This document shows positions 13,020-34,200 of a stretch of 64,000 bases of DNA, piece by piece. Under the pieces are notes generated by a model. It searched no databases, was not told the origin of the DNA, and was given only the letters and a program-made list of their open reading frames with translations. The position numbers and the translations under genes are program-made. Every line of letters begins with the position of its first letter. Position 1 is the stretch's first letter. The stretch is from Fibrobacter sp. (GTDB lineage Bacteria; Fibrobacterota; Fibrobacteria; Fibrobacterales; Fibrobacteraceae), in the NCBI GenBank assembly GCA_017412605.1, contig JAFPWY010000004.1, positions 310,001 through 374,000 of the forward strand, in the 5' to 3' direction.

Positions 13020-13385
13020 CTAGCGCCTGACAACGACGCTCGATTCGGCTCCTGCAGCACCAGGAATCGCATTAGGCTTGCATACGCGGACCTCGGCCGC
13101 CAGAGCCTTGGGATAATGCTCCAGAATGTACTTGGCCGTCTCCACGACCAAAGTCTCTTCCAGCTGGAAACACGAAAGGCGGATGAACCCTTGAAGGTCT
13201 TCCGCCAATTGTGCATAATCTATTGAATGGGCCAAATCCTCGTTACGGGCGGCCTGGGTAAAATCCACTATTATCGAAACATTGAGAACTATGGGCTGCT
13301 CGTTTTCCCTTTCGTAAGGAAGGGTCCCGATAATGCAGTTGAACTCAAGGTCCTTGAGTGAGATCTTGCCCGGATTTATTACCAT
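13020..13385 (-). CDS. folB: Dihydroneopterin aldolase
   Basis: Folate-pathway enzyme that splits 7,8-dihydroneopterin to 6-hydroxymethyl-dihydropterin and glycolaldehyde. The 121-residue product matches the family: KDLEFNCIIGTLPYERENEQ at the N-terminus (catalytic Glu region), SIDYAQLAEDL in the middle, and VRVCKPNAIPGA near the end (substrate-lining residues). The start is ATG 13385, overlapping the last 7 nt of the upstream gene, which implies translational coupling. No folK or folP is adjacent, so the pairing with a membrane protein is unusual. Confidence 0.93.
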   Translation of the reverse strand: MVINPGKISLKDLEFNCIIGTLPYERENEQPIVLNVSIIVDFTQAARNEDLAHSIDYAQLAEDLQGFIRLSCFQLEETLVVETAKYILEHYPKALAAEVRVCKPNAIPGAAGAESSVVVRR

Positions 13386-14440
13386 ACGAACAGGACGATT
13401 GCCGCAGTCAGGGACACGCCTGTCACGGCAAACCAGATGTTACGGGACGTAGCATAGGAATCATGCGTCTTCTGGTTCGTGTCCATACGCTTCTGCAAAT
13501 CGGCCATTGTCCAATCGCCATTTTTGCCAAACTTGCTTACGGCCGTCTCGCAGTTCTTGTTGCCTTCGCAGCCCTTGAGGAGCTTGTCGTTCAATTCCTC
13601 GAGCTTGTCGTAAGCGTCCTGGGCCTCGTTGGCCTTCATGTGCTGATACACACCCATGACGGCGCTACCCACAGCAACAGCAGAAAGGGCGACAGCGGAC
13701 CAGAAACGAACTTCGTCGGCGATACCGAAACGGTCAGTGGCATTTTCAGAGGCTTCGCTAGCCGCATAGTCACGGTCGTCGGCTTCTCTGTTGGTACGGT
13801 CTACGTTACCCCTGACATCGTATTCATCTTCGTCATCGTCGCAATCCGGGTCGTACTCGTCGCATTCTTCTTCGTCTTCTTCGACACGAGACTTCTTGGC
13901 GACCGGAGCAGGAGCTTCCTCCTCCTCTTCCTCATCGTCTTCGACCGCGGGTGCCGGAACGGCTGCAACGGATTCATCTTCGGAACCCTTGAGTTCGACC
14001 GGAGCGTCGTTCACGTAGGCAACAGCGCTGCTCATGCCGGGCACATAGATGAACTTACCGTCGAAGTATACCTTCTCGGCATCTTCCTCGGCAGCCATGC
14101 CCTTGCGCTGGTAAATCTTCGCCGAAACGATGTCGCTATAGTCGGCACCGTCAGCAGTCAACGGGACAAGCGAGGAAAGGTCCCCGGCACGACCCTGGTA
14201 AAGCTGGTATGTCGTTTCGGATTCGCCGAACGGATCCTCGAACTTCTGACGAACAACAAGACGGCCGGACTGCAGCGACCCGACCTCGGAGGCCGGAGCC
14301 TTCTTCAACTGACCACCAAATTCAGCCGTAATATACTGGTCTGGCGAACCGACATCCGTCGCATCGAAGCCATCGATATCATAGGGACCGGCGAAAGCGG
14401 TAAGTGCTGTGCAAAGAACTATAAAAGATAAACGTTTCAT
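13379..14440 (-). CDS. Secreted or membrane protein with an acidic linker, function unknown
   Basis: The start is ATG 14440 behind GGAGCAGAAG, giving 353 residues; the longer frame to 14503 has no ribosome site. A signal peptide (MKRLSFIVLCTALTAFA) is followed by about 150 residues of beta-rich character with an FDGKFIYVPG motif. A very acidic Glu/Asp linker is mixed with Pro/Ala (residues 165-220, including DDEEEEEEAP). Two hydrophobic helices near the C-terminus flank a helical, Lys/Asn-rich loop with two Cys. This suggests a protein tethered by its C-terminal region. No family recognised. It overlaps folB by 7 nt. Confidence 0.75.
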   Translation of the reverse strand: MKRLSFIVLCTALTAFAGPYDIDGFDATDVGSPDQYITAEFGGQLKKAPASEVGSLQSGRLVVRQKFEDPFGESETTYQLYQGRAGDLSSLVPLTADGADYSDIVSAKIYQRKGMAAEEDAEKVYFDGKFIYVPGMSSAVAYVNDAPVELKGSEDESVAAVPAPAVEDDEEEEEEAPAPVAKKSRVEEDEEECDEYDPDCDDDEDEYDVRGNVDRTNREADDRDYAASEASENATDRFGIADEVRFWSAVALSAVAVGSAVMGVYQHMKANEAQDAYDKLEELNDKLLKGCEGNKNCETAVSKFGKNGDWTMADLQKRMDTNQKTHDSYATSRNIWFAVTGVSLTAAIVLFVW

Positions 14441-14654
14441 CTTCTGCTCCAATAAGCTCAAATTTCTAGTGAAATATATAAAAAAAAAGCCAATTGTTCT
14501 CAAAATTCATAAAAATGACAACTATTATATGATTATTTTGAAAATAAATGATTTACAGCACTAGTTATTGCACTTTTTTTACGAAACGGCATTGTAAAAA
14601 ATTCTACATTTTGACCGGAAATTTTAACTCTAAACCCCAAAAGAAGGTGCTACA

Positions 14655-15911
14655 ATGGCAAAGCTTTCTATTGAAGATCTCGAACTCGCCGGCAAGCGCG
14701 TGTTCATCCGTGTCGACTTCAACGTTCCGCAGGACAAGGTGACTGGCGAAATCACCAACACCAAGCGTATCGAAGCCGCTCTCCCGACCATCCAGTACGC
14801 TCTCGACAAGGGTGCAGCCGTCGTGCTCGCCTCCCACCTGGGACGCCCGAATGGCGAAAAGAACATGAAGTACACGCTCGCTCCGGTCGCCAAGAAGCTC
14901 GAAGAACTCATCAAGAAGCCGGTGAAGTTCCTCGCCGACTGCGTGGGTCCGGAAGTCGAAGCCGCCTGCGCCGCTATCAAGCCGGGTGAAATCATCCTCC
15001 TCGAAAACCTCCGCTTCCACATCGAAGAAGAAGGCAAGAGGAAGATCAAGAACGCCGATGGCACCGAGACCAAGGAAAAGGCCGACAAGGAAGCCGTCAA
15101 GGCCTTCCGCGCAAGCCTCACCAAGCTCGCTGACGTCTACGTGAACGACGCTTTCGGTACCGCTCACCGCGACCACTCTTCCATGACGGGTGTTGAACTT
15201 CCGCAGCGTGCCGCCGGTTTCCTCATGAACAAGGAACTCAAGGCATTCGACCAGGTGCTCAACAATCCTCCGCGTCCGTTCCTCGCCATCCTCGGCGGTG
15301 CCAAGGTCGCTGACAAGATCCAGCTCATCAACAACCTCCTCGACAAGGCCGACAAGATCATCATCGGCGGTGGCATGGCTTTCACCTTCAAGAAGGTTTT
15401 GAACAACATCGAAATCGGTTCTTCTCTGTTTGACGAAGAAGGTGCCAAGCTCGTTCCGGATCTGATGGCCAAGGCCAAGGCTGCTGGCAAGGAAATCATC
15501 CTCCCGGTTGACTACATCGCTGCCGACAAGTTCGCTGCCGACGCTGCCACGAAGGCTGTCTCTGACGCCGAAGGCATTCCGGCTGGCTGGATGGGCCTCG
15601 ATGTGGGTGCCGAGTCCACCAAGCTCTTCGTGAACGCTATCAAGTCCGCCAAGACCATCGTTTGGAACGGTCCTGCAGGCGTGTTCGAATTCGAAGCTTT
15701 CGAAAAGGCTACCAAGGCTATGGCCGACGCTATCGTCGAAGCTACCGCTGCTGGCGCAATCACCGTGATCGGTGGTGGCGATACCGCTACGGCTGCCAAG
15801 AAGTACGGCGCTGACAAGAAGGTGACCCACACCTCTACGGGTGGTGGCGCTTCCCTCGAATTGCTCGAAGGAAAGGTGCTTCCGGGCGTCGCTGTCCTTA
15901 CTGATAAGTAA
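14655..15911 (+). CDS. pgk: Phosphoglycerate kinase
   Basis: Glycolytic enzyme that makes ATP from 1,3-bisphosphoglycerate and ADP. The product is 418 residues, slightly longer than the common 390-400. Conserved blocks are present: RVDFNVPQD with catalytic Arg, [49 protein letters not shown] and [10 protein letters not shown] near the end. The start is ATG 14655 with AAGAAGGTG upstream. Codon use is strongly biased to C-ending and GGT/GCT codons, as expected for a highly expressed gene. It stands alone, followed by three stacked terminators. Confidence 0.98.
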
Positions 15912-16055: not shown

Positions 16056-16257
16056 CTCGCTCGTAACTGAAAATGCATTGTCATTGCGAACCCCGTAGGG
16101 GTGAAGCAATCTCCATCCGGAATTTTATAGGAACTCCCGTTTGCGGGAGTTCTTTTTTTTCTCGCTCGTAACTGAAAAGGCGTTGTCATTGCGAGCCCCG
16201 TAGGGGTGAAGCAATCTCCATCCGGAATTTTATAGGAACTCCCGTTTGCGGGAGTTC
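16048..16257. repeat. 105-bp tandem duplication carrying terminators and an ATTGC...GCAAT hairpin
   Basis: Copy 1 is about 16048-16152 and copy 2 about 16153-16257, offset by exactly 105 bp with only a few differences. Each unit contains CTCGCTCGTAACTGAAAA, a hairpin of the type ATTGCGA-CCCC-GTA-GGGG-GAAGCAAT, and a terminator stem GAACTCCCG/CGGGAGTTC with a T-run. Confidence 0.85.
16131..16160 (+). terminator. Rho-independent terminator 2 after pgk
   Basis: The stem GAACTCCCG / CGGGAGTTC has loop TTTG and is followed by eight T. An identical copy lies 105 bp downstream. Confidence 0.85.
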
Positions 16258-16265
16258 TTTTTTTT
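16236..16265 (+). terminator. Rho-independent terminator 3 after pgk
   Basis: Second copy of the GAACTCCCG / CGGGAGTTC hairpin with its T-run, part of the tandem duplication. Confidence 0.85.
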
Positions 16266-16411: not shown

Positions 16412-16912
16412 ATGGCGATGCGTTCTATATTCATTGCATTATTTTTGACCTTGGCGGCCTATGCCCAGGAACCTCCTGCTTACTACAGCACACAGCAAGA
16501 CACCGTTCCTGTCGAATACGTAAAGAAGATTGATTCCTATACAAAATCGGGAGAACGTCTAAGCAACGCAGGGACAGGATTTTTCATTGGCGGCGGGGCC
16601 TTAATTGTCTTGGCGGCTGCCGAAGTTATTCACTATTCGGTAAAAACGGAAAAAAAGAAAGACACCGAAGAGTATGACGTCGTTGAAGGGGATCACGGTG
16701 CTCTCGCTCTTATCGCCCTAGCAGGGGTCGGATGCATTCTTGGTGGAACCATTTTTAAAGTATCTAGCTACAAGAAAAAGAATCGTGCGGAATACTACAA
16801 AGAGCAACTTAAAAAGCACCAAAAAGCGAATCAATCCGTAAGTCTGGAAATCTTGCCGACCTACAATCCCATCCGCCAGGCTTTCGGCGGGAATCTGTTG
16901 TTCGATTTCTAG
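16412..16912 (+). CDS. Tandem membrane-protein family, copy 1 (divergent)
   Basis: This 166-residue product starts at ATG 16412 with GGAG nine nt upstream. It has a signal peptide ending Ala-Tyr-Ala-Gln and a short polar region. Two hydrophobic segments (about 55-72 and 98-115) flank a charged loop, and the C-terminal Lys-rich part ends NLLFDF. It lacks the ATG-to-linker block Met-Asp-Thr-Thr-Phe and the Gln/Pro linker of copies 2-5, yet keeps Asp-Ser-Tyr-Thr-Lys-Ser-Gly and the final aromatic-x-Phe. The aromatic last residue is typical of outer-membrane insertion signals, but a barrel is not evident. Function unknown. Confidence 0.7.
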   Translation: MAMRSIFIALFLTLAAYAQEPPAYYSTQQDTVPVEYVKKIDSYTKSGERLSNAGTGFFIGGGALIVLAAAEVIHYSVKTEKKKDTEEYDVVEGDHGALALIALAGVGCILGGTIFKVSSYKKKNRAEYYKEQLKKHQKANQSVSLEILPTYNPIRQAFGGNLLFDF

Positions 16913-17088
16913 TTTTTTGGAATTTCACGGAGACGCAAGCCGTCTTTAATGCATTTTTTTATTGAAGGAATCACAAAAAAACAACTTTTCATTCCGAAAT
17001 AAACCATTTTTGTGAATTTCGGTTTATTTTTCCATATGTAATTTGTTTCAAATTCTTTGGCGGGAATCTGTTATTGGAGTTTTAGGCT

Positions 17089-17700
17089 ATGGCGATGCGT
17101 TCTATATTCATTGCATTATTTTTGACCTTGACCGTTTTTGCCCAGGAAATGGACACGACGTTTTTCGTGAACGAGCAGGGACAGACCATCGGGATTATCC
17201 ACGCAAAAGGAACGGCACCTACGTTACCCCAAGCAGCGCCGACCACGGCTCCCGCCACAAATCCATTTGCCATCGACAGCACAACCTATTATCAGAACCT
17301 AATCGAAAAGAACACGAAACAAGGCGATTCTAGAAGAAACATCGGAAAAAAAATGATGCTCAGCGGTGGAATTGGATCTGCGATAGGAGGATTCATCATG
17401 CTTGCGGGGCTGATGCAAATACCACTTTGCGATGACGATGATGACGGGTGTGAAGCCAGCAACACAGCCACTGCGCTTTTCTCTGTAGGTTATATATTGG
17501 CGTTAGACGGCGTAATTGCATTTACCACAGGCTTGGTACTCAAAATAAATGGCAACTCTAAACTGCGCTGGGCAAACCGTTATAGAAATTTCCTCAATCA
17601 ATATAACCTCAGGAAACAATATTCCCTAAAAATGCAGATTTCCCCCATAGTCAACCCTTACAACGGGTCTCTCGGCAGTAGGTTATCCCTGAATTTTTAA
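17089..17700 (+). CDS. Tandem membrane-protein family, copy 2
   Basis: This 203-residue product has a signal peptide nearly identical to that of copy 1 (MAMRSIFIALFLTL), including the DNA upstream. From residue 22 it matches copies 3-5: QEMDTTFFVNEQGQTIGI, then an Ala/Pro/Thr linker in place of the Gln/Pro one. A Ser/Tyr-Tyr-Gln helix follows, then two hydrophobic segments with a Gly-rich GGIGSAIGG and an acidic Cys-containing loop (CDDDDDGC). The conserved tail YSLKMQISPIVNPYN ends in Phe. This copy looks like a mosaic of the copy 1 leader and the copy 3-5 body. Confidence 0.75.
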   Translation: MAMRSIFIALFLTLTVFAQEMDTTFFVNEQGQTIGIIHAKGTAPTLPQAAPTTAPATNPFAIDSTTYYQNLIEKNTKQGDSRRNIGKKMMLSGGIGSAIGGFIMLAGLMQIPLCDDDDDGCEASNTATALFSVGYILALDGVIAFTTGLVLKINGNSKLRWANRYRNFLNQYNLRKQYSLKMQISPIVNPYNGSLGSRLSLNF

Positions 17701-17803
17701 CCTTTAATCTATTCGTCAATCGCAGCGGGCTTTTCTTACCGATATGTTATTTTTTCCATATTCGACATTCCCATTTTCAAGAAAATAATTTAATTTTTCT
17801 TAC

Positions 17804-18439
17804 ATGAAACAAATTATTCTTTCTATCGTGTTTTTTGGAGTACTCTTGGCAAACGCCCAGGAAATGGATACAACCTTCGTGGTAAATGAACAAGGACAGA
17901 CCATCGGAGTTATCCACGAAAAAGGAACCGTTCCCGTCATTCCCCAGCAGCAACAGACAAACGATCAAATACAGGTTCCCCCTGCACAGCAAGCTAATCC
18001 GGCTTTCGGTTACGACAGTACAGAATTCTACATGGGCATGATCAACAAATATACTGAATCCGGAAACAAAACCCGCAGAATCGGTAAAGGCATGATGCTC
18101 GGCGGCGGAATCGGAGCCGGGCTCGGTCTCATCTTATTTGCCATTGGAGCACAAGAAGGAAGTTGCGATACGGACGCCTATGGAAATGAAACGTGCCAGG
18201 TAAAAAGCGACGGTCTTGCCGCTACAGGCGTAATCGTTATGATCACGGGTGCCTCAGTATTCGGTGCCGGCACCATCGTCAAACTTATCGGCAGTTCCAA
18301 AATACGCAGGGCCATCCGCTATGAAGACAGACTCCAGAAGTACAAAATGAAGCAGCAGTACTCTATGAAGTTGCGTTTCGATCCGCTTATTGACCCCATC
18401 AACAAGAAAGCCGGTGCAAACCTGGCCATGGAATTCTAG
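17804..18439 (+). CDS. Tandem membrane-protein family, copy 3
   Basis: 211 residues. The signal peptide MKQIILSIVFFGVLLANA precedes the family block QEMDTTFVVNEQGQTIGVIH and EKGTVPVIPQQQ. A Gln-rich linker to about residue 65 and the segment YDSTEFYMGMINKYTESGNK follow. Two hydrophobic segments then flank a loop with a Cys pair (GSCDTDAYGNETCQ). The ending KAGANLAMEF is shared with copy 4. There is no Shine-Dalgarno before ATG 17804; TAATTT-N7-ATG could be a leaderless start, or the gene may be read from an upstream transcript. Confidence 0.75.
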   Translation: MKQIILSIVFFGVLLANAQEMDTTFVVNEQGQTIGVIHEKGTVPVIPQQQQTNDQIQVPPAQQANPAFGYDSTEFYMGMINKYTESGNKTRRIGKGMMLGGGIGAGLGLILFAIGAQEGSCDTDAYGNETCQVKSDGLAATGVIVMITGASVFGAGTIVKLIGSSKIRRAIRYEDRLQKYKMKQQYSMKLRFDPLIDPINKKAGANLAMEF

Positions 18440-18468
18440 ACTCCCCACACAAAAAAAGAAGGCTTCCT

Positions 18469-19119
18469 ATGAAACACCTCATTCTTTTTCTCGCAATTTT
18501 CGGAGTGATCCTGGCTAATGCCCAGGAGATGGACACGACGTTTGTCGTGAACGAACAGGGCCAGACCATCGGGGTTATCCACGAAAAGGGTACCGTCCCC
18601 GTCATTCCCCAGCAACAGCCCATGCCGCAACCGCAGATGCAGCCGCAGATGCAGCCGCAGCCGCAAATGCAATACCAGGCGAACCCCGCATTTGACATCG
18701 ACAGCACCAGCTTCTACCAGAGCCAAATCGAAAGATATACGCATTCTGGGAACAAGCTCAACAGGGCAGGTATCGGCATGATGATTGGTGGCGGCATCGG
18801 TACGGCAGTCGGCCTTGGCATGTTTATCGTAGGAATGGATGATGCCAATTGCGAAGAAACATACGCAAACAACTACGAATGTGACGGCAACGCCTTGAAC
18901 GTGGGGGGCTATATCCTCATGACAGCAGGAGTCGCCGTATTCACCACCGGTTTAGTTCTCAAGATTGTCGGCGGTTCTAAAATTCGCAGGGCAAACCGCT
19001 ACCAGGAAAGCCTGACAAATTACCAGATGAGACGGCAATATTCCTTGAAAATGCGTCTTGACCCGACAATCAACCTTGTTAAGAACAAGGTCGGTGCTAG
19101 ACTGGCCATGGAATTCTAA
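18469..19119 (+). CDS. Tandem membrane-protein family, copy 4
   Basis: 216 residues, starting at ATG 18469 with AAGAAGG upstream and 29 nt after copy 3. The linker is the longest of the family, with a Met-Gln-Pro-Gln repeat (PQPQMQPQMQPQPQMQ) at about 47-64. It keeps the DSTSFYQSQIERYTHSGNK block, the Gly-rich GGGIGTAVGLGMFIVGM first hydrophobic segment, a Cys pair in the loop, GLVLKIVGGSKIRRANRYQ, and the ending RLAMEF. Copies 3 and 4 are the closest pair. Confidence 0.75.
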   Translation: MKHLILFLAIFGVILANAQEMDTTFVVNEQGQTIGVIHEKGTVPVIPQQQPMPQPQMQPQMQPQPQMQYQANPAFDIDSTSFYQSQIERYTHSGNKLNRAGIGMMIGGGIGTAVGLGMFIVGMDDANCEETYANNYECDGNALNVGGYILMTAGVAVFTTGLVLKIVGGSKIRRANRYQESLTNYQMRRQYSLKMRLDPTINLVKNKVGARLAMEF

Positions 19120-19140
19120 AAAAAAGTTATTTTTCTTTGT

Positions 19141-19776
19141 ATGAAAAACATAATTCTTTTTCTTGCATTCTTTGGAGTACTCCTGGCAAACGCCCAGGAG
19201 ATGGACACAACCTTTGTTATCAATGAACAGGGGCAGACCGTCGGGATTATCCACGAAAAGGGAACCGTCCCCGTAATCCCGCAGCAACAATACCCTGCAC
19301 AGCAAATGCAACCGCAGCAATTGCCGCCTCAAATGAACCCGGCATTCGCCTTCGACAGTACTGTATACTACCAGAGCATCATCGACAACTACATCACCTC
19401 CGGCAACAAGCTTCGCAAAGCCGGTAACGGCATGATGATTGGTGGCGGTATCGGTACCGGTGTCGGTTTATTCATGTTCCTCATCGGCATGTCTCAAATA
19501 GAAACCTGCGACGATTATGATGACAATGGCTGCGACGATGACGGAGCCGTAATGCTCGTAGCCGGTTACCTCGGAATGCTTGTTGGTATTCCCGTATTCG
19601 CCACAGGCCTCACGCTCAAGATTTTCGGTGGAGCGAAACTCCGCAAGGCTGACCGCTACAATGGCATTCTCGCAAGGTACCAGATGCGCCGTCAATACTC
19701 CCTGAAGTTGCGTGCGGCACCGCAATTCAACCCCGTCAACAATAGTCTTGGCGGAAAACTGGCATTAGACTTCTAA
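19141..19776 (+). CDS. Tandem membrane-protein family, copy 5
   Basis: This 211-residue product begins at ATG 19141, 21 nt after copy 4, without a Shine-Dalgarno; the sequence TATTTT lies 7 nt before the ATG. The block is QEMDTTFVINEQGQTVGIIH, followed by a linker rich in Gln and Pro. The loop between the hydrophobic segments is very acidic (CDDYDDNGCDDDG) with a Cys pair, and the ending is KLALDF. Copies 2-5 share the Gly-x-Ile-His-Glu/Ala-Lys-Gly-Thr string. The next gene starts 5 nt later. Confidence 0.75.
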   Translation: MKNIILFLAFFGVLLANAQEMDTTFVINEQGQTVGIIHEKGTVPVIPQQQYPAQQMQPQQLPPQMNPAFAFDSTVYYQSIIDNYITSGNKLRKAGNGMMIGGGIGTGVGLFMFLIGMSQIETCDDYDDNGCDDDGAVMLVAGYLGMLVGIPVFATGLTLKIFGGAKLRKADRYNGILARYQMRRQYSLKLRAAPQFNPVNNSLGGKLALDF

Positions 19777-20711: not shown

Positions 20712-23700
20712 CTATTCTTCCCTTCTCATATATCCTGTCTTCAGGATCCGATATTCGGTGTGGCCGTCCTTGAACGTAAAGTCGATGCGCCAGATATACA
20801 CACCGGTACCGACTTTCCTGTCCTTGTCGGAGCGGTGATTCCAGCTCAGGTAGCCGACTTTTGCACGATTCTTGTCGTTGCCGCGAATCTTCGACTCCAT
20901 CTCGCCATCATAGCCGAACTTCTGTTTCATGTTCGTGACGACGTTGGCCAGGTTGTCGTAGATATAGATGTTCGCCTCGTACGGTGCGACCGACGCAATC
21001 TTGATGACCGTTAGGCTGTCCGGCACCTCTTCCCAGGAATCACCACCCTTTGGAATCCACTTCGGATTCTTGCCGATACCATGCACCGGCTGCAGAGCCG
21101 CAACTTCGTAAAGATAGACGGTCTCGTCACGACCTTCGACCTTCACGCCACCGCGGCCCATGGAATTGCCTTCGCTGTCGACGTAGGAGGCCTTGGGGTT
21201 AGTCATGATGCAATTGTCCTTCATGATGGCGTAATCCGCCAACACGAACTTCCAGACAAGACCGGCAGAATCGACAACCGGGGCGAAGTTCGTACGGATC
21301 GGATAAGTCACCGTATCGCCGCACTGCTTAGAATAGCGGAACAGGTCCTTCCAGGCAGAAGCCTTGCCGACATTCTTGATGCTTTCCGACATCGTAATTT
21401 CCAGCGTATCCGGTGCAACGTCATCCGAGGCGTCCAGGTATTCCTCCATCGAAATCTGACCGGGGCGCTTTACCGCCTTCACCGGAACGGCACCCACCCT
21501 GTCGACAAGCAAAGCCTTCTGCGAGAATTCGGACTCGTCCTTGGTCACGCGCAGGTACGGCGGCGCCGAGGTATCCGGGGCAGTCAGGCCGTACTTGAAC
21601 GCCTTGCGGACGCGGGCCTCGACCCAGGTGGAATCCCCGACAACACGGATCTTCTTCGAATCAACATCGGTCCAGGCGCCCTGAGCGACATTCCAGAACA
21701 CCGTATCGATGCTTGCGATTTTCTTCTTCAGAGCTTTCTTGAAGTGGATGCGGACGGAATCGGCCTTGCCATCCAAATCCCTGTCGTAGATTTCGGCGAT
21801 GTCGGCAGGAACGTATTTCGTATAGACCACAAGCGAGTCGCGCTTCTTGAGCTTGGACTTGTCCGACTTGATTCCGCCCTGAATGACCACGCGGTTGAAT
21901 GTCGTATCCAGGTTAAGTACGGCATCTAGATGGGAGTCTACCAAGGATGCGGAATCTTCCACAAAATAGAAACTGCCCTTGTAAACATACTGCTTGGAGT
22001 AAACACCTGATTCAACAACTTTCACGCGGAGTGTGTCGCCCTGGTCCGTAAACAGATTCAACTTCAGCGTATCTGCGACATACAGAGACGGGCTGGGCGC
22101 CTGTATCTTGAGGCAGAATTTCGTCGAGGTAGAAGTCTGCACGGAATCCAGATCCGTCTTGCAATTGGCATCCATGAACCGGTATTCGGTCTTGACGTCG
22201 TCCGCAAAAATCACCGTATCGCGAACGGTAGTGCCGTATAGCGGATCCTTGTATGTCGCCACCATCGTATCGGCCGCTGCACAAGAGATCTTTCCGTCGT
22301 TCTTCTTCACACCGTACTCGTTCTTCTCCAGAGCCTTCTTCGATTCATAGTAACCATTACTCACTTCCAGCAGTTTCAGGTTGTTTTCTACGTCGCCGGA
22401 GACAAGGCAGGAAAGGCTTGCCGTTACCGTATCGGTATCCATCGAGAAACTTTCCGTTATGACGGCGAGCTTAATTTTGCTCGTCAGGCGTGTAATCTGT
22501 TCGCCATCCTTTTCGCCATTCTTTATCCAGATGCTGTCCGGCACATCCTCGGCAGCCAAGCTGGTGTCCCTACAGGCAAGGGCCGTGTTGTTCGAGAAGG
22601 TTTCCCAGCGGACAGAAACACCCTTGCCATCGATGGCGCGCACATAGAACTCGACTCCATCCGGCCTCATAACCGACGGCTGGATAGAAACGCTCCAGAC
22701 GTTGCCCTTCTTGGATTCGCGGGACATCTTCTTCTCCTTGAAGACGACCGAGCCAACAGGCCTGTAGTACAGCTTTGCACTGGCAATGTCGTCGGCATCC
22801 TTGATTTCGAACGAGAACAAGCCCTCCCCTTCGAGCGTATCGACGCAGTCCACTTCTTTATACTTGACCTTGGGGGCCTCGTTGCCAATCGGAATCGTAT
22901 ACGGTTCGTTGGAAGGCGTCGGAACCTGTGGCGACTTTCCGACCATGCCGGACGCGTTCATTGCGATTACATAGAAATCAAGACCCGGATATACGACATT
23001 CGAATCTGTCACCACAAATTTCCACAAGCTGTCCTTCACATGGACCATCGGGTGAGCAGTATAGGTCTTGGACGTATTCGGGGAGGAAGTGCGCGAATAG
23101 AGCGTTACCGAGGCGATGGAATCCTGGGAAGTCACATACACGCTAATGGTGATAGAATCCCCCTCACGCTGCTTCACGCCAATCAGCTTCTTGGTGTCCT
23201 TGGTCAGCGTAATCACGGGAGGCATTGCGTCTTCGTTCCAGTACGCCGTGTCGGAAGCCGTCTTGTTGAGGAACTTCGTCTTGACGATAACCTGGTGTTC
23301 GTCCCCATCAATAGTCGTATCCGGAGATTCGTAGCAGATGGTGTACTTCGACTGGATATTGTTCCTGATCGATATGTAGATGGCTGCCAACTGGTCTGCC
23401 GAAGGAGCAAAGGTATAAGAACCGCCCGTAGCATCCGACATGGTCTTGAGCGGATCCGTGTTATTTGCACCAACAGCAACCGAGTGAATCACCGTATTCA
23501 AACTCTTTGCATAATCGATGACATTCTGCGAAGTGAACGCGTTGCCACCATCGGCACCGTCCGAGAACACGATGACCGCAGTCGGATTCGTTTCGCCTAC
23601 AATCTGCTCCAAGCCAGTATAGGTACCATCACGAATGTTTGTATTGCCGTAAGCACCCAACCGTTCAACCGCTGCGAGTAACGAATCCTTGTCCGAGGTC

Positions 23701-26700
23701 ATCGTCTGGTGAATATTCGTCTTGCCGTCACCGATAAAACCGACAATCGCCGCCCGGTCAAACTGAGACATTTCGTAGATGAACTGCCGTATAGATTGCT
23801 TCGCCTGATTTATACGGATCTGGCCATACGATTCCGCGCCCATGGAACCGCTTTCGTCCACAACAATGGCAACCGAGACGCCAGTGGTGTTCTCTACAGA
23901 CGACACTTGGAGGGGAAGCCCCTTCTTGTCTTGGAACAGCACGAAGTCGGAAGAATCAAGACCAGCGATGGACCTGTCCGTATTCTTGTCCTTCACGGTT
24001 ACGTCAACGCAAATTCCCGGGAAACTGCCCAAATCCAGATTCGTAATACTCACTTCCGGTTCCGTCGAAAGGTCAAGCGTATAGGTCGCCATGATTTCGC
24101 AAGCGGAAGTAATCGGTTTGACTCGTATGTTTTTGCTTGTCGAATCGCTGATTGTCATTTTACCGGAAACCTTGACCCACCTGTCAAAGACATATCCGCC
24201 ATAGGGAATGACGCTTATCGCGGTATCCGAGCCCGGGAAAACACCCACATTACCAATCGGGTTGACACGGCCCTTCGCATCCGAAGTAACCGTCAGCACA
24301 TACGGGGTTACAATCTGGATTGTAAAATCCTTGTCCAAAATTTCTGTCTTGACGGAATCAACTAGAGCCCAGTAGAGTTTCTTTTTCGGCTCGCCCCTGA
24401 ACAAGAAAATCGAAGAGGTTCCCTGCACCGGAGATGGCGCAACAGAATCAACTCCCACAGAAAGGAAAGACGTATCCGTTCCGAATTCATACCATTTCGC
24501 AGACATTCCGTCAGTGGATTCTATATGAATCATATACCACGCCGTATCGGGAGGAGTCCACGTAAAGTACACCGTATTTCCGGTCACGTCACTATAATAA
24601 TGTGTAACGTAGTTGAACGTCTTTTTCGACTTCGACAGCGAATGGATAGAGCCTTTCTTGAAATGGGCTATAACCCCGGACTGTTTCTTTATCGAAGCCA
24701 TGGTGAAAGGCGCGTTCTTGTCGTCTATTGTCGCCGAACCAGAAATCAAATCCCAGGAATCGAAACGGTAACCAGAATCGGCAACAGCCTTGATTGGATA
24801 TTTCGGCCCAATCCAGGCAGGATCGTACACAACAGGCGACACGGTACCGTTGGTATCCGCAGTCAAGGTAAGAGTAGCCCTCGACTGCGCATAGCTTATC
24901 CAGAACGTTCTTGAAGTATCCGCAGAATTTGCCGGGAAAACCCACACGTATATGGTTGAATCTTTTGCCAGCCACGCCGAATCCGCAGCCACATTCCCGT
25001 TCCGATAAGCTTGGTAAGTAGAGAACGCACTATCGGCAGACCTGTAATAGGAGAAATTCCTAGTATTTACCCACGACGTGACAAAGACATAGGCACCCGT
25101 ATCCGGAGCGACAAACTTGAACTTCACTCCCTTTGTCGGATTTTCCACATAATAGTATTCTTCTGCCGTATACGCCGTCGGGGTTGCCGTAATCGGATAG
25201 AACGTCCCCGAACGGAACACAGCACGAACCTTGCAATCTCCGCCCAAAACAACCCGCGTCGTCCTCTGGGTGGAATCGATAAAGGTGCATTTTCCGGAAG
25301 CCTTCTCCCAGTGATCAAACCTCTGGTCTGCATTCGCGGTAGCGGCAATCGTTAGCGTATCCCCGGCGATATGGGTTGAATCATAATTGGCAGTGGTCCC
25401 GTTCACGTAGACATAGCCACCACCCAAGGTATCCGAACGGAGCTTGGCCGTCTTTTCGACCTTGACTCGGATGGAATCCTTCAAGTACATATTGTCATAG
25501 GGCAAGAACAGGTAATAGCGAGAAGTGTTCGCAGCCGCCACATCAAAAAGGACACGCACTTCGGTTTTCCCTTCATAGGACGTAATGGTATGAGAAACAA
25601 GCGTGCCACCAGTGAAGGTTGAATCATCCAAGAAGTCCACATGATACCAGGGTTTGTCCGACTGCATCACGAGCATGTACAAACCAGCACTCTTCGCCGT
25701 ATGCACGCCCCTGATGCCATAACGCCCTGTCAACTGCGTACCGTTTCCAAAGTACGAGAATTCGGAGAACTTATCCGTCAGCGTGTAAACCTTCCCCTTC
25801 CTTTTTTTCACAACGACATTCACCGAATCGGACGACGGAACGAATATGGTAGAAATCAAGGAGGAATCCTTAAACTTGCCTTTGCCATAATCCAGTTTCC
25901 AGCAGACAAAGGCATAACCGGTATCTATAGTCGTCGTCACAGGGAGAGAATCCCCGTAGGCAATGGTATCGGGCTTTGTCTTCCCCTCGACATTTACGAT
26001 AGACGCACGGACCGCAAATACGGCAATCGAATCGTCATAGGAATTGGCGTTCGACGCATTAATCCGGAAGAAGTGCTCCTCGCCCTTTTTGGAAGGATCC
26101 ACGACAAAATTCCGAATTTGGGCATTGTTCCCAATCCCCAAATTATACGGGGCCTTGGCGAGTACGGAATCTAGGCCATAATTGTAGGTGGAAAAGAAGG
26201 AATCCAATCCATAGTTATAATAATTACCATTAAAGTAAGAACCATTCGCCAACTTGGTCTTGGCTCGGATGAGGTAAAGTGCCGTATTCGGAGCGACGTA
26301 GCGGAAACGGAGTCCGGCAGAAGGGCCCATTTCGTAATAGTCCTTGTTTGCCGAGTAGTACTTTTCCTTCGTGGTAATGTCAATCAAGTTCGCAGAATCG
26401 CACCGCAGTTTAAGCTTGAGGTCACTATTTACCTTGAGGGTTATGGAACTCGGATAGTCCTGAGTAATCGTCCCATTGCCCTTCGTTATCTTGAAGCCCG
26501 CCGGCCTGTATCCCGGAACGGAATAGCCCAAGTATGTCACGGTTAGCCCCGCAGGTACGCTTTCGCTGGTGACCGCCGTGGAACACTGGGGCGATGCACT
26601 CGTAAGGGTCACCGTGTAGGACTTGAGCTTGGAATAAACCGCAGAGAACTCAAGAATCGAATCCTCATTGACCGTGGGCCTTACGATATAGAACATCGTA

Positions 26701-28166
26701 TCGCCCTTGCTCAAGTAGAGCGAATCCGTCTTCGTTTCCAAAAATTTATCGTTCCATGAAGCCGAATTGAATGCAGATGTCGGATACTGAGCGACGTAAA
26801 AAGACTTCGAGGAATCCTTCAACGTAAATCGGACAGCAAAGGAGCCATCGCTCGGAGCGACAAACATGAACCGCACACCTTCGCTCGGATTTCGGGAGTA
26901 GTAATGTTTGGCCATCGTATAATTTTTCTCCTTGGTCGTCACCGAATAAATGACTCCAGGGACAAACGTGGCCCTCACATGACATTCCGAATTGACAGCC
27001 ACATTCGTAAATCTGCTAGTGGAATCTACAATCGTGCAATTACCGGAAATCTTTTCCCAATGGCTGAATTTCGACCCGAGATTATCCGTTGCGGTAATTA
27101 GAACCGTATCACCGGCGACATAGCCAAGGTTGTAGTTCGTGTTTCCTCCCACTCGGACGATACCGGATCCCACCGTATCTGCATACACCCCGGCAGCCTT
27201 TTCGACACTCACCGTTACCGTATCACTCATATACGCCGGAGCCAATTGGACCATTTCGAAATAGTTTGTTTCTCCGGCCTTTGATACAAAGGGTATTTTG
27301 CAAACAATCGTACCACAGCTCTGCGAAGCAGGGTTCGATGAAACATCCGTTCCGTACCTGTAAATGGTGTTCGAGTTGGCTTTCTTCACAACCAAGACGT
27401 AATCACCAGAATCCGTAGCACTGAAATAGGTGCGGACCGCATAACCCGAAGAAGAATTTTCGTACCCATCGACATCGTAGACAAAACTTGAAGGAGTACT
27501 CGTAAGCGGATAGTTCTGGATCGTTTTCTTGTCGATAGAAATTTCAGCATCAGCGGACGGGGTAAATGTCGTAGTCATCGCTTTATTGTTGGCAAACGTC
27601 CCTGCAGTGGAATCCGGACCAACCTTCCATCCCATAAAAGCCTCGTCCGGGCCAAGCAAACCGACTGCGCTTACCGAAAGCGAGCTACCGGCAGTGACAG
27701 CAGTATCCCTGGCGTTGAAAGTCACGACATAAGAAGCGATATCTTCATAAACCACAGAAAACGGCAGTGCAGGATCCGCCGAATTATATCCCTTTATCAA
27801 ATAATAAACGGCTTGTCCATTGCCTGCAAAAAACGATTCAGACCAAGCCGACGTACCGGAAAGGACCCTTAAAATGGAACCGCACGAAGTAAACGTGTTG
27901 TCTGGGCACTTATATAAATAGTAAGAGCTGTTAGCCGGAGTAAACGTTACCTTGAAAATACCCGTCTTTGGGGCTTCAAACGACAGCCGGACACCCGTTG
28001 TCGTATCGCCATCGGTATAGGAGTTGTCTACGAGCGTGTAGGAGGTTTCAGTCGTCGTTATCGGCAGAACGCCATGCTGCTGAGCGAAAGCACTGTGCAT
28101 CAGAGCAGCGAAAAACAAAAATAAAGCACACTGTTTGAATAGACGCGAATATTCCATCCTAACCAC
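20712..28166 (-). CDS. Giant secreted multidomain protein with VWA domain and sorting tail, copy A
   Basis: 2484 residues. Signal peptide 1-29. Residues about 30-1330 alternate a beta-sandwich unit (core T-x-Y-x-x-A-x-x-Y-Y, then F-x-F-V-A-P-x-x-G-x-Y) with InlB-type B-repeats carrying G-x-x-F-x-H/S-W-E (for example RFDHWEKASG). A VWA domain follows at about 1430-1620. It has an intact MIDAS: DESGS in VAIVVDESGSMG, a Thr in NIRDGTYTG and Asp in VIVFSDGADG. Two Ig-like units and a large C-terminal part with a Ca-type loop DRDLDGKAD come next. The last 70 residues (GVYIWRIDF, then GYMRREE) look like a type IX-style sorting tail. The start is GTG 28166, conserved with copy B (TTG). Probably an adhesin or surface scaffold. 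Confidence 0.85.
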   Translation of the reverse strand: MVRMEYSRLFKQCALFLFFAALMHSAFAQQHGVLPITTTETSYTLVDNSYTDGDTTTGVRLSFEAPKTGIFKVTFTPANSSYYLYKCPDNTFTSCGSILRVLSGTSAWSESFFAGNGQAVYYLIKGYNSADPALPFSVVYEDIASYVVTFNARDTAVTAGSSLSVSAVGLLGPDEAFMGWKVGPDSTAGTFANNKAMTTTFTPSADAEISIDKKTIQNYPLTSTPSSFVYDVDGYENSSSGYAVRTYFSATDSGDYVLVVKKANSNTIYRYGTDVSSNPASQSCGTIVCKIPFVSKAGETNYFEMVQLAPAYMSDTVTVSVEKAAGVYADTVGSGIVRVGGNTNYNLGYVAGDTVLITATDNLGSKFSHWEKISGNCTIVDSTSRFTNVAVNSECHVRATFVPGVIYSVTTKEKNYTMAKHYYSRNPSEGVRFMFVAPSDGSFAVRFTLKDSSKSFYVAQYPTSAFNSASWNDKFLETKTDSLYLSKGDTMFYIVRPTVNEDSILEFSAVYSKLKSYTVTLTSASPQCSTAVTSESVPAGLTVTYLGYSVPGYRPAGFKITKGNGTITQDYPSSITLKVNSDLKLKLRCDSANLIDITTKEKYYSANKDYYEMGPSAGLRFRYVAPNTALYLIRAKTKLANGSYFNGNYYNYGLDSFFSTYNYGLDSVLAKAPYNLGIGNNAQIRNFVVDPSKKGEEHFFRINASNANSYDDSIAVFAVRASIVNVEGKTKPDTIAYGDSLPVTTTIDTGYAFVCWKLDYGKGKFKDSSLISTIFVPSSDSVNVVVKKRKGKVYTLTDKFSEFSYFGNGTQLTGRYGIRGVHTAKSAGLYMLVMQSDKPWYHVDFLDDSTFTGGTLVSHTITSYEGKTEVRVLFDVAAANTSRYYLFLPYDNMYLKDSIRVKVEKTAKLRSDTLGGGYVYVNGTTANYDSTHIAGDTLTIAATANADQRFDHWEKASGKCTFIDSTQRTTRVVLGGDCKVRAVFRSGTFYPITATPTAYTAEEYYYVENPTKGVKFKFVAPDTGAYVFVTSWVNTRNFSYYRSADSAFSTYQAYRNGNVAADSAWLAKDSTIYVWVFPANSADTSRTFWISYAQSRATLTLTADTNGTVSPVVYDPAWIGPKYPIKAVADSGYRFDSWDLISGSATIDDKNAPFTMASIKKQSGVIAHFKKGSIHSLSKSKKTFNYVTHYYSDVTGNTVYFTWTPPDTAWYMIHIESTDGMSAKWYEFGTDTSFLSVGVDSVAPSPVQGTSSIFLFRGEPKKKLYWALVDSVKTEILDKDFTIQIVTPYVLTVTSDAKGRVNPIGNVGVFPGSDTAISVIPYGGYVFDRWVKVSGKMTISDSTSKNIRVKPITSACEIMATYTLDLSTEPEVSITNLDLGSFPGICVDVTVKDKNTDRSIAGLDSSDFVLFQDKKGLPLQVSSVENTTGVSVAIVVDESGSMGAESYGQIRINQAKQSIRQFIYEMSQFDRAAIVGFIGDGKTNIHQTMTSDKDSLLAAVERLGAYGNTNIRDGTYTGLEQIVGETNPTAVIVFSDGADGGNAFTSQNVIDYAKSLNTVIHSVAVGANNTDPLKTMSDATGGSYTFAPSADQLAAIYISIRNNIQSKYTICYESPDTTIDGDEHQVIVKTKFLNKTASDTAYWNEDAMPPVITLTKDTKKLIGVKQREGDSITISVYVTSQDSIASVTLYSRTSSPNTSKTYTAHPMVHVKDSLWKFVVTDSNVVYPGLDFYVIAMNASGMVGKSPQVPTPSNEPYTIPIGNEAPKVKYKEVDCVDTLEGEGLFSFEIKDADDIASAKLYYRPVGSVVFKEKKMSRESKKGNVWSVSIQPSVMRPDGVEFYVRAIDGKGVSVRWETFSNNTALACRDTSLAAEDVPDSIWIKNGEKDGEQITRLTSKIKLAVITESFSMDTDTVTASLSCLVSGDVENNLKLLEVSNGYYESKKALEKNEYGVKKNDGKISCAAADTMVATYKDPLYGTTVRDTVIFADDVKTEYRFMDANCKTDLDSVQTSTSTKFCLKIQAPSPSLYVADTLKLNLFTDQGDTLRVKVVESGVYSKQYVYKGSFYFVEDSASLVDSHLDAVLNLDTTFNRVVIQGGIKSDKSKLKKRDSLVVYTKYVPADIAEIYDRDLDGKADSVRIHFKKALKKKIASIDTVFWNVAQGAWTDVDSKKIRVVGDSTWVEARVRKAFKYGLTAPDTSAPPYLRVTKDESEFSQKALLVDRVGAVPVKAVKRPGQISMEEYLDASDDVAPDTLEITMSESIKNVGKASAWKDLFRYSKQCGDTVTYPIRTNFAPVVDSAGLVWKFVLADYAIMKDNCIMTNPKASYVDSEGNSMGRGGVKVEGRDETVYLYEVAALQPVHGIGKNPKWIPKGGDSWEEVPDSLTVIKIASVAPYEANIYIYDNLANVVTNMKQKFGYDGEMESKIRGNDKNRAKVGYLSWNHRSDKDRKVGTGVYIWRIDFTFKDGHTEYRILKTGYMRREE

Positions 28167-28294: not shown

Positions 28295-31200
28295 CTATTC
28301 TCTTCTCATATAACCGGTCTTCAGGATTCTATATTCGGTATGGCCATCCTTGAACGTAAAGTCGATGCGCCAGATATACACACCGGTACCGACTTTTCGG
28401 TCTTCGTTGGAGCGGTGGTTCCAGACCAAATACCCAGTTTTCGCACGGTTCTTGTCGTTGCTGCGAATCTTCGATTCCATCTCGCCATCATAGCCGAACT
28501 TCTGCTTCATGTTTGCGACGACGTTGGCCAAGTTGTCGTAGATGTAGATGTTCGCCTCGTACGGTGCAACCGATGCAATCTTGATAACCGTCAGGCTGTC
28601 CGGCACTTCTTCCCAGGAATCGCCGCCCTGCGGAATCCATTTCTGCTTCTTGTGCTTCTTGCTGGAACCATGCACCGGCTCAACAGCAGAGACTTCGTAG
28701 AGGTAGACCGTTTCGTCGCGACCCTCGACCTTCACACCACCGCGACCCATAGAGTTGCCTTCGCTGTCGACGTAGGTGGCCTTGGGGTTGGTCATGATGC
28801 AGTTGTCCTTCATGATGGCGTAGTCCGCCAACACAAATTTCCAGACAAGACCGGCAGAATCGACAATCGGGGCGAAGTTCGTACGGATCGGATAGACCGT
28901 CGTATCGCCACACTTCTTAGAATAGCGGAACAGGTCCTTCCAGGCGGAGGTCTTACCGACATTCTTGATGCTTTCCGACATCGTGATTTCCAGCGTATCC
29001 GGAGCGACGTCATCCGAGGCATCCAGGTATTCTTCCATCGAAATCTGGCCGGGGCGCTTTACCGCCTTCGCGGGAACGGCACCTACCCTGTCAACAAGCA
29101 TCGTCTTCTGCGAGAATTCGGACTTTTCCTTGGTCACGCGCAGGTACGGCGGCGCCGAGGTATCCGGAGCTGTCAGGCCGTACTTGAACGCCTTGCGGAC
29201 GCGGGCTTCGGCCCAGGTAGAGTCTTCGACAATACGGATCTTCTTCGGATCGACATCAGTCCAGGAGCCCTTTGCAGCATTCCAGAACACCGTATCGATG
29301 CTCGCAATCTTCTTCTTCAAGGCCTTCTTGAAGTGGATGCGGATAGAATCGGCCTTGCCGTCCAAATCTCTGTCATAGATTTCGGCGACGTCGGCAGGGA
29401 CATACTTCGTATAGATAACGAGCGAGTCACGCTTCCTGAGCTTGGACTTGTCCGACTTTGTCCCGCCCTGGATCACGACGCGGTTGAATGTCGTATCCAA
29501 GTCAAGCACGGCATCCAGCAGCGAATCGTTGAGGGATGCGGAATCTTCCACGAAGGAGAAGCTGCCCTTGTACACGAATTCCTTAGTGTAATCACCCGTT
29601 TCGATGGCTTCCACGCGGATAGAGTCTCCCTGATCCGTGAATACGGTCAGCTTGAGCGTATCCTCGACATACAGCGACGGGCTGGGAGCGAAGACCTTGA
29701 GGCAGAAGTTTGTCGAAGTCGAAGTTTGCACGGAGTCCAAATCCGACTTGCACTTTGCATCCATGTACTGGTACGAAATGCTGACATCATCACCCAGAAT
29801 CACGGTGTCGCGAGCGTAAGTGCCATAGAGCGGATCCTTGTACGTAGCCACCATCGTATCGGCCGCTGCGCACGAGATTTTTCCGTCGTTCTTCTTGACG
29901 CTGTACTCGTTCTTCTCAATGGGATTCTTCATCTCATAGAAGCCGTCGCGGGTTTCCATCAGCTTGATGTTGTTTTCCACGTCGCCGGAGACAAGGCATG
30001 CGAGGCTCACCGTCACGGAATCCTTCTTGAGCGAGAAATTTTCCGTCACAAGCGAGAGTTTTATCGATTCCGTTTCGCGCGTAATCTGCATGGTATCCTT
30101 TTCACCATTCTTAATCCAGATGGTGTCCGGCACATCAGGAATCAGCGGAACATTGCCGTCACAGGCTCCGACAAAGCTATTGCTGAACTTTTCCCAACGA
30201 GAAGAGACGCCCTTCTTGTCTATAGCTCGTACGTAGAATTCGATGCTATCCGCATGGAAAACCGTAGTCGGGAGGACTGCAGTCCAGTCATCACTCTTCT
30301 TGGATTCACGGGACATCTTCTTCTGTTTGAATTCGACCGATCCCGGAACTCTGTAGTAAAGCCTTGCACTGCTAATTCCGTCGCTATCCTTAATTTCGAA
30401 CAACAAGGAACCCTCGCCGCTGGTAGTATCCACGCAAGCGGTCTCCAGATATTCGATTGCAGGAGCATCGGTGCCTATCGGGATCGTGTAAGGCTCCTTA
30501 GCCGGCTTTGCCACCTGAGGAGACTTGCCCACCATGCCAGAAGCATCCGTCGCAATCACGTAGAAATCCAAGCCCGGATATACGGCGGGAGCACCGCGGA
30601 CGACGTAGCGCCACAAGCTGTCCTTGACATGGACCATCTGGTAGGCTACATAGGTCAAGGTGGTATCCGTGGTGGACGTACGCATATACAGCTTCACCGA
30701 CGCAATGGAATCCTGGGATATGACATACACCTTGATATCGATAGAATCCCCTGCGTTCTGCTTTACACCAATCAGCTTCTTGGTATTCTTGGTCAACTTG
30801 ACAACCGGAGGCATAGACGATTCGTTCCAATAAGCCGTATCCGAAGCGGGTTTGTTGATGAACTTCGTCTTGATGACAACCTGGTGATCGTCCCCGTTAA
30901 TCGTCGTATCCGGAGATTCGTAGCAAATGGTGTACTTGGCCTGAAGTTCGTTCCTGATCGAAAGATAAACCGCAGACAATTCTTCAGCCGTGGGAGCGTA
31001 GGTGAAAGTTCCACCAGTACCATCAGCAATGAGCTTGAGCGGATTCTCGATGTTGGAGCCAACGGCAACCGAGTAAATCACCGTATTTTTGCTCTTCGCA
31101 TAATCAATAACTTCCTGGAGAGAAACAGAATTGCTACCATCGCTACCATCGGAGAACACGATGACCGCCGTCGAATTCATCTCGCCCACAACTTGCTGAA

Positions 31201-34200
31201 TACCAGTATAGGTGCCATCAAGAATATTCGTACCACCTGTAGCGGACAAATGGTCAACAGCAGCCAGCAACAAACTCTTGTCCGAAGTCATCGTCTGGTG
31301 AACAGTCGTTGAATAACCACCGTCGAAACCGACAATCGCGGCCTTGTCAATCACAGTCATTTCGCTAATAAATTGCCGTATGGATTCCTTGGCCTGCGTA
31401 ATTCTCGTTCCGCTCATAGATCCACTTTCATCGACAACAATCGCAACCGAGACACCGCCAACGCCCCCTGTTGACGACACGTGGATGGGAAGCGCCTTCT
31501 TGTCTTGGTAAAGAACGAAATCAGAAGAATCAAGACCGCCAATGAACTTTTGGGTATTCTTGTCAATAAAAAGGACATTGGCACATACGCCGGGGTATTC
31601 GGTCAAATCCAAATTCGTTATATACAATTCCGGATCCGTGGCCAAGTCAAGTGAATAAGTCGCCTTGATTTCACAAGCGGTGGATTTCGGCTTGACACGC
31701 GTTGTCGTATTGCTCGGATCATCAATGTCCACCTTGCCAGAAACCTTGACCCACTTGTCAAAAATGTAGCCACCATAAGAAATGGCGGTAACCACAGTAT
31801 CCTCACCAGGGTAAAGTCCCACTTCACCCTTTGGACGAACAATTCCCTTCGATTCCGTAGAGACGGTCAACACGTAAGGACTTGTAATCTGGATAGAGAA
31901 GTCCTTATCCGGGATAAGGCTCGTAATCGAATCGACCAAAGCCCAGTAACGAGCCTTTTTAGCTTCTCCCTTGAAAAGGAATACCGTAGATTTTCCTTTC
32001 ACGGCACGAGGTAACACGCCGCTATAAGTAGACGTATAAAGGGCAGTCGTATCGGTCCCGAAATCGTACCATGTCGCAGCCATTTTTTCCGAGGATGTAA
32101 TTTCCACCATATACCACGACGTATCGGGAGGAGTCCACGTAAAGAGAACAGCAGATCCAGTCGCATCGCTGTAATAATGCGAGACATAATTGTACGTCTT
32201 CTTTGTCGTTGAAAGTTTCTGGACAGCACCCTTCCGGAAGTGGGCCATGACTTCGGACTGTTTCTTAATGACCACAAGCGTCGAACGATCCTTCTTGTTG
32301 TCTATCGAAGCCGATCCGGCAACCAGCTCCCACGAATCAAAGCGATAGCCATAACTTGCAGTTGCCTTTATAGTGTACTTGGGGCCAATCCACGCCGGGT
32401 TGTATTGAGAAGGAGATACTGTACCATTCGAATCAGCCGACACCGTAAGGAACGCCTTCTTGTCCGCCTCCGCATAGCTAATCCAGAACGAAATCGAGGA
32501 ATCCAAATACGAAGAAGGATTGACCAGTAAAAACACCGAATCACCCGCACTCATAGCCACAGAGTCGACAGATGTTCCCGAAAAAATATTATATGTACTA
32601 TAGGAAGAGAAGGTGTTATCAGGGTACCTATAATAACGCAAATTGTTATTTCCCGTCCACGAGGTGACAAAAACATAGGATCCTGTTGACGGTGCAACGA
32701 ACTTGAACCGGACACCATTGGAAGGATCTACCTCATAATAGTCCTTGGCCGATGTATATGCGGTCGGCTTATCCGTAACCGGGTATATGATTCCATCCCG
32801 GAAATAAGCTCTCACCTTGCAATCGCCCTTCAAGACAACACGCGTGAAGCGATCCGTAGAATCGAGAATGGAGCATTTTCCGGAAGCCTTTGCCCAATGG
32901 TCAAATCTCTGGCCTGAATTGGCATAAGCATTAATAGCAACAGTATCTCCAGCAACGTGGGTAGAGTCATAAGTATAAGAAGTTCCATTTACATAAACAT
33001 AACCATAACCCACAGTATCCGCACTCAGCATGGACGTCTTGACCACTTTGGCATAGATAGAATCCTTCATGTACACATTTGTGTAAGGCAAAAGCAAGAA
33101 GTAGTAAGAAGAATCCACCTCTGCATTGAAGGAATACCGCTCTTCATTTTTCTTCTGCGGATCTGCCGAAGAATTAAGATAGCCAGTTGTGTAATAAGAA
33201 CTGAACGTGGAATCATGCATATTAATGTAATACCGCCAAGGGCGATCAGTCTGCATTATCAGCACATAAGAGCCTCCGGTCTTTGCCGTATACTCGGTCC
33301 GAACACCATAGCCCAAATTCGTCTGAGAGCCATTGGCATAATACGTGAAGCCGGAGAACTGGTCAGTCAACGTATAAATCTGGCCCTTCTTCTTATTCAC
33401 GATAACCTTCGCCGAATCAGACGACGGGAAGAAGTCAGTGGACATGGCTGTGGAATCCGCAAACCTCCCGGAGCCATAGGACAATTTCCAACCGACAAAA
33501 TTATAACCCGTGTCAAGAGCAATGCTGATCGGGAGCGCATCTCCTATAGCAACGGTATCGCGATAAGCCTTTCCATCAACATCCACAAAGGCGCCCTTGA
33601 TTGCATACACGGCAACTAAATCATCGTAATAGTTGGAACCATAAGGAACTATCTTAAAGAAGAATTCCTCCCCTTTCTTGGAAGGGGACACCACAAACGA
33701 CCGGGTCAGATAAGAACTGGAAATATACAAAGAACTCTGATACGAAGAGAACGCAGAATCTAAGCCATAGTTGTAATAATACCCCTCAAAAAAGGAGCCA
33801 TTCGACGATTTTGTTTTAGCACGAATGAAATAGACGGATGTCGTCGGAGCGACGTAACGGTAACGGAGGCCATACGATGCATCGATTTCGTAAAAATCCT
33901 TATCCGCAGAGTGGTATACCTCATTTGCGGTGATATCGATCAGATTTGAAGAACCGCACTGCAGCTGGAGTGTAATATCTCCGCTAACCTTGACAGTGAT
34001 GGAATTCGGAAGGCTATCGGAAACCGTTGCAGTTCCCTTAGTCACTTTAAAGCCTTCCGGCCTGTAGCCCGAAACGGAATAGCCAAAGTACGTTCTAGCC
34101 ACTCCATCAGGAACATATTCGCTCTTAACCGACGTAGAACACTGCGACGACTTGCTGGTAAGGGTTATCTTATGGGATTTGAGCGTGGAATAGACCGCAG

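Follow-up and report, generated by a model that had tools for sequence, protein, structure and literature searches.

Helical outer-membrane proteins are, to our knowledge, rare. The lipoprotein SlyB comprises a Gly-zipper hairpin and a beta part, as can also be read from the Escherichia coli sequence. SlyB has been described as forming ring-shaped transmembrane complexes in the outer membrane (accessible part of PMC13067283). Here we describe five tandem genes at 16412–19776, forward strand, in a 64,000-nucleotide stretch of a Fibrobacter sp. genome (the window). The genes encode paralogous signal-peptide proteins whose family is in none of the libraries searched and is real, old and constrained. 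An envelope location for these proteins is very likely, and it is plausible, and a reasonable thing to infer, that the loop between their two helices is exposed at the surface. As a full description, we tentatively favour exported envelope proteins that form a Gly-rich helical hairpin in the outer membrane with the loop outside. The genes are as follows.

16412–16912, forward strand: copy 1, complete open reading frame (ORF), 166 amino acids; signal peptide, no MDTTF block, C-terminal Phe; helix hairpin with a Cys-free acidic/Lys loop, two long helices in the AlphaFold model
17089–17700, forward strand: copy 2, complete ORF, 203 amino acids; copy-1-type signal peptide on a block-bearing body; Cys-DDDDDG-Cys loop
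17804–18439, forward strand: copy 3, complete ORF, 211 amino acids
18469–19119, forward strand: copy 4, complete ORF, 216 amino acids
19141–19776, forward strand: copy 5, complete ORF, 211 amino acids

The intergenic gaps along the array are 176, 103, 29 and 21 bases, and the gene downstream begins 5 bases past copy 5, with a 25-base gap between it and the gene after it. Consistent with the original prediction of five tandem paralogues, end-to-end alignment to copy 5 gave amino-acid identities of 63, 53, 50 and 31% for copies 4 to 1. A tblastn search of the genome with copy 5 recovered copies 4 to 1 at E values of 2.6e-79, 3.4e-67, 4.1e-55 and 5.3e-11, so the resemblance is not due to chance. 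A common set of parts had been ascribed to every copy, and this held in full for the C-terminal Phe (5/5) and in part for the remainder. The MDTTF...NEQGQ block, the Cys pair of the acidic loop and the Tyr-Ser-Leu/Met-Lys tail are found in copies 2–5 only, copy 1 having Q-S-V-S-L instead, and the Gln/Pro/Met linker is found in copies 3–5, copy 2 having an Ala/Pro/Thr linker and copy 1 none. The absence of block, linker and loop cysteines agrees with the predicted divergence of copy 1. Copy 2 had been called chimeric, and its 19 signal codons differ from those of copy 1 by a synonymous difference of 0.16 versus 0.6–1.3 in the other segments; judged on these codons, copy 2 is a mosaic of copy-1-type signal DNA joined to a different body. 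A second mosaic was found at another locus (L041), where two copies have an identical C-terminal segment (synonymous difference, pS, 0.06) and pS of 0.4–0.8 before the base of helix 2. Exchange between copies therefore occurs at the ends.

AlphaFold monomer models of copies 5 and 1, with 21 aligned sequences each, bore out the predicted two-helix architecture as a long hairpin. In both models a signal helix and a disordered region precede two helices, each about 50 residues long, and a beta-hairpin follows, with mean predicted local distance difference test (pLDDT) scores of 67.8 and 68.2 for copies 5 and 1 respectively (helices mostly 72–91; loop and ends low). The predicted helices are antiparallel, their tip halves Gly-rich and hydrophobic (median 5 and 3.5 Gly per 19-residue hydrophobic segment), with the acidic loop between them. 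The parts of copy 5 are the following.

19141–19197, forward strand: signal peptide, residues 1–19, with an Ala-Asn-Ala-Gln end as read from the sequence by eye; model helix 2–18
19198–19281, forward strand: conserved N-terminal block, residues 20–47; copies 3 and 4 are identical in amino acids here at a synonymous difference of 0.72
19282–19353, forward strand: Gln/Pro/Met linker, residues 48–71, predicted disordered; pLDDT <50 over residues 35–71
19357–19503, forward strand: helix 1, residues 73–121, Gly-rich hydrophobic half about 93–118; pLDDT about 75–90
19504–19539, forward strand: acidic loop with Cys pair, residues 122–133
19540–19695, forward strand: helix 2, residues 134–185; pLDDT about 75–91
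19705–19773, forward strand: C-terminal beta-hairpin ending in Phe, residues 189–211; low confidence, pLDDT about 49–62

The original prediction recognised no known family, and the library searches gave the same result. No Pfam or NCBIfam model matched the five window copies at cut-off, and 47 members gave scattered weak matches only, including hits to two models of SLATT two-helix effectors (E 0.003 and 0.007, one member each and possibly the same member). The same 47 members had no match in PADLOC and none to the Pfam models for MotA/TolQ/ExbB, for which fold matches appeared only at E 0.28 and above. The family profile found no usable match among PDB sequences (best E 0.33), and the PHROGs search of 21 members likewise yielded no usable match, its hits falling in two unnamed families with a best E of 0.00018, reached by two members. 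A phage or plasmid origin was considered and has no support, as tblastn against plasmids gave no family match and none of 79 pattern matches in viral contigs was a relative; nothing in the viral fold library scored at E <0.001. Within the Fibrobacter literature on the outer membrane, proteome, type IX secretion, paralogues and signature proteins, including the accessible parts of PMC4619616 and PMC6851124, no description of the family was found, which is not proof that none exists.

The spread of the family was determined across Fibrobacterota genomes, and phylum specificity is no part of the claim. Of 41 related genomes, 22 gave a match to the five-copy profile (E≤0.01). With the 47-member profile at E≤0.001, matches were found in at least 98 of 167 Fibrobacterota genomes, covering at least 17 of 40 genera, and in at least 55 of the 89 best-quality genomes; these counts are lower bounds, with up to 19 candidates scored per genome, and 10 same-genus genomes among those listed had no match. 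The window's own genome holds two distant paralogues outside the array (G000:C6:215081–215596 and C9:338265–338798). Among 31 genomes, the MDTTF-type block occurred in five and in family genes only, and its interpretation as a motif common to other proteins was rejected; one further dispersed member (L080) carries it. Other fetched stretches held a 303-amino-acid member with two hairpin-like regions in a single chain (L029, 549–1457, minus strand), short signal-plus-block fragments (L072, 9643–9837, and L050, 3458–3664, minus strand) and partial copies (L011 and L019), the fragments and partial copies being apparently decaying family genes.

In a tree of 71 family members, copy 1 grouped with L044_118 and L042_2101 (support 100/99), copy 2 with its orthologue L044_795 (100/99), copy 3 with L044_1480, L041_2662 and L042_4874 (99/81), copy 4 with its orthologue L040_5258 (99/99) and copy 5 with L044_2164 (100/91). 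Every window copy thus has orthologues in other arrays, and the copy set is therefore old and maintained. The window paralogues are near synonymous saturation (pS about 0.6–0.9), and the N-terminal block keeps 77% amino-acid identity among them. By the substitution pattern of window pairs (nonsynonymous difference, pN, 0.15; pS 0.70), this block is under strong purifying selection. The loop is the least conserved segment within arrays (23, 22, 19 and 16% identity in four arrays), and in five orthologue pairs chosen from arrays its identity was 78, 67, 82, 87 and 100%. This pattern suggests that the copies have long been retained, each with its own loop identity. A hypervariable loop under diversifying selection, or a hypervariable antigen, was rejected because orthologous loops are conserved.

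SlyB may serve as the nearest working analogue that we can name. Like the SlyB-type Gly-zipper lipoproteins (Pfam Rick_17kDa_Anti group), the family is exported and combines a Gly-rich two-helix hairpin with a beta element C-terminal to it. It differs in its signal, which ends in Ala-x-Ala-Gln-Glu or similar with no lipobox Cys in the window copies, and in its much longer helices, acidic Cys loop and Phe C-terminus. The Pfam models of the SlyB group matched none of 47 members at E≤0.01 and none of the five window copies at E≤1, and hhalign of the family against E. coli SlyB gave a probability of 0.3%. The VIA-align rows shown did not include SlyB, which is no proof of anything; those rows were mainly generic helical hairpins, Z reached 10.7, and Z below about 13 is common for long helices according to the tool's note. 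Foldseek against the PDB gave no significant match; at the top, with E 0.13 and 0.37, were hairpins from alpha-pore-forming proteins. AhlB/SmhB/MakA alpha-pore formers share the long helical hairpin and hydrophobic tip, but the family models are without a multi-helix body and the fold matches are not significant.

Outer-membrane beta-barrels resemble the family in that its C-terminal strand ends in Phe, which was the case for 126 of 137 distinct family ORFs from the fetched stretches, against 2 of the 34 other tiled window ORFs that are 150 codons or longer. Such barrels have eight or more strands, whereas the family model has two C-terminal strands and short low-confidence N-terminal ones. 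The Gly spacing also differs from the barrel GXX-Phi-X-Phi signal given in the accessible part of PMC13067283, residue −6 being K, R, N, R and N in copies 5, 4, 3, 2 and 1 respectively.

The topology of the hairpin was predicted from signal, charge and cysteine content. A signal-like start was found by our own rule in 119 of the 137 members, and with a signal peptide both helix bases would start outside the cytoplasm. Loop and flank statistics were calculated for the 116 members that are 150 residues or longer and begin with a basic signal; the other 21 of the 137 were either too short or lacked that signal. Of the 116 loops, 97 carried a net negative charge, and in 105 members the 15-residue stretch following helix 2 was net positive; the 15 residues before helix 1 were positive in 73 and negative in 33. 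The numbers of loops with 0, 1, 2 and 3 cysteines were 67, 2, 46 and 1, so that 113 of 116 had either none or two, with 42 single-Cys loops expected by Poisson. Thinning to 62 representatives gave 43, 2, 17 and 0, against 20.1 single-Cys loops expected. Cys state changed at least seven times on a loop-free tree, so a single inherited event does not account for the pairing, though the events are modest in number.

A rival reading that we consider somewhat unlikely is an inner-membrane hairpin, with the signal peptide cleaved or kept, the loop cytoplasmic and the termini periplasmic. In its favour, the helices are just as hydrophobic as those of polytopic inner-membrane proteins. The positive-inside rule, by which basic flanks are expected on the cytoplasmic side of inner-membrane helices, would however be broken in most members, because the acidic Cys-paired loop would lie in the cytoplasm and the basic flanks outside, and the pairing of cysteines in 46 of 49 Cys-bearing loops is as expected outside the cytoplasm. 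Signal peptide, reversed charge bias and likely disulphide together speak against a simple inner-membrane hairpin, and the outer-membrane hairpin is favoured for this reason.

Several observations count against the outer-membrane hairpin. On a simplified scale, the two segments (medians −0.05 and 0.29) are as hydrophobic as the inner-membrane YdhK helices (−1.0 to 1.83) and more so than SlyB (1.96 and 4.41), so that their release by Sec into the inner membrane is conceivable. There is no lipobox, 67 of 116 loops are Cys-free, and the beta-hairpin and N-terminal block are of low confidence in the models. As far as the accessible part of PMC13067283 describes them, the C-terminus misfits the GXX-aromatic-X-aromatic beta-signal, and an acidic outside is the opposite of the 'positive-outside' rule for outer-membrane barrels.

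Under the outer-membrane hairpin, the sequences suggest Sec export followed by signal-peptide removal, and every copy is predicted to fold into a long antiparallel two-helix hairpin. The Gly-rich tip half would span the outer membrane from the periplasmic side, with the acidic loop, usually disulphide-closed in copies 2–5, outside. The basic lower half, the beta-hairpin with its terminal Phe, the linker and the conserved N-terminal block would be periplasmic, and the block may dock to a common periplasmic partner. The tandem copies would represent co-maintained, loop-specialised versions that may assemble together; a cell-surface role of the loop in binding cations or ligands is no more than a guess. 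DxDxxG-like patterns were found in 8 of 40 distinct inter-Cys stretches versus 1.5 expected from shuffles, a hint only of a calcium-binding loop, as the stretches are mutually related and a small number lie outside hairpin loops. Another family within the phylum contributes distant members (L022, L023 and L025) whose Cys-free loops carry D-x-Y-G-N-x-T, reminiscent of the Cys-flanked loop in window copy 3.

A soluble or peripheral periplasmic helical bundle, with the hydrophobic halves buried in an oligomer and not spanning a membrane, would be compatible with the close packing that Gly-rich helix faces permit and with fold matches that include soluble helical hairpins. We regard it as quite unlikely, two 19-residue segments with a mean Kyte-Doolittle value near 1.9 being unusual in soluble proteins. 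Still less probable is a released alpha-helical pore former, or a contact-dependent antibacterial protein, inserting its hairpin into other cells. The top Foldseek rows of both models and the best VIA-align Z are in its favour; against it, none of the matches is significant, Z values of this size are common for long helices, the neighbourhoods contain no conserved immunity-like partner and the copies persist as old orthologues. A gliding or type IX secretion component is barely credible, since although type IX secretion has been reported for F. succinogenes (accessible part of PMC6851124) and 2 of 47 members weakly match a PorU model (E 0.00066), such matches are scattered and absent from the five window copies, and no such gene was recognised in the fetched neighbourhoods. 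Of the surface or gliding apparatus originally proposed, the surface part thus remains plausible for exported proteins with two hydrophobic segments; the gliding part is not borne out by the conserved neighbours, namely yifB, folB, pgk and a C_GCAxxG_C_C-like gene, or by the dispersed paralogues, which lie beside unrelated-looking genes.

In 14 of 20 neighbourhoods the family gene or genes, numbering one to seven, adjoin pgk and/or the C_GCAxxG-like gene; pgk is visible in 12, and the other two contigs start inside the array but show C_GCAxxG and CBM9-like genes. The remaining six are dispersed loci, two being the own-genome paralogues given above. Two of the 14 (L067 and L075) have one family gene each, separated from pgk by the C_GCAxxG gene. 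As gene order varies and dispersed copies have unrelated-looking neighbours, the locus is best seen as an old site of residence and not a functional operon with pgk. A 'Cys redox protein' following the array had been named in the original proposal of a surface or gliding apparatus. Its involvement was not supported, as the protein has no signal peptide by eye, falls below the Pfam cut-off (C_GCAxxG_C_C-like match of 25.5 bits versus 27) and precedes the family gene in some genomes but follows it in others. Given this variable side, linkage by descent of the locus explains its adjacency.

Other features of the window were recorded around the array. Between pgk and copy 1, 16129–16259 contains a tandem repeat of about 105 bases with two identical terminator-like hairpins. 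The pgk gene (14655–15911) has about 96% DNA identity to pgk in most of nine other Fibrobacter stretches and 89% in two, and yifB beside it reaches only 70–73% in these genomes, apart from one at 84%; the higher identity of pgk could reflect strong codon constraint or gene exchange. A conserved neighbour protein (13379–14473, minus strand) has a plan similar to the family: it carries a signal peptide, an acidic C-x6-C stretch that recalls the copy 5 loop, and two hydrophobic segments near its end. It does not match the family profile. Two adjacent genes (20712–28166 and 28298–35761, minus strand) encode exported-looking proteins of about 2,480 amino acids with 62% mutual identity.

Cellulose degradation by Fibrobacter depends on contact between cell and substrate, and many Fibrobacter envelope proteins are without an assigned family. 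A broader proposal, unlikely in its entirety, would be that the family represents phylum-wide, non-lipidated outer-membrane proteins that cross as Gly-rich helical hairpins and not as beta-barrels, in co-expressed sets of loop-specialised paralogues, perhaps as hetero-oligomeric rings showing disulphide-closed acidic loops on the Fibrobacter surface. Loop-specialised envelope hairpins that have been maintained as a set throughout the phylum offer a concrete and testable candidate for a function at the surface or in the outer membrane.

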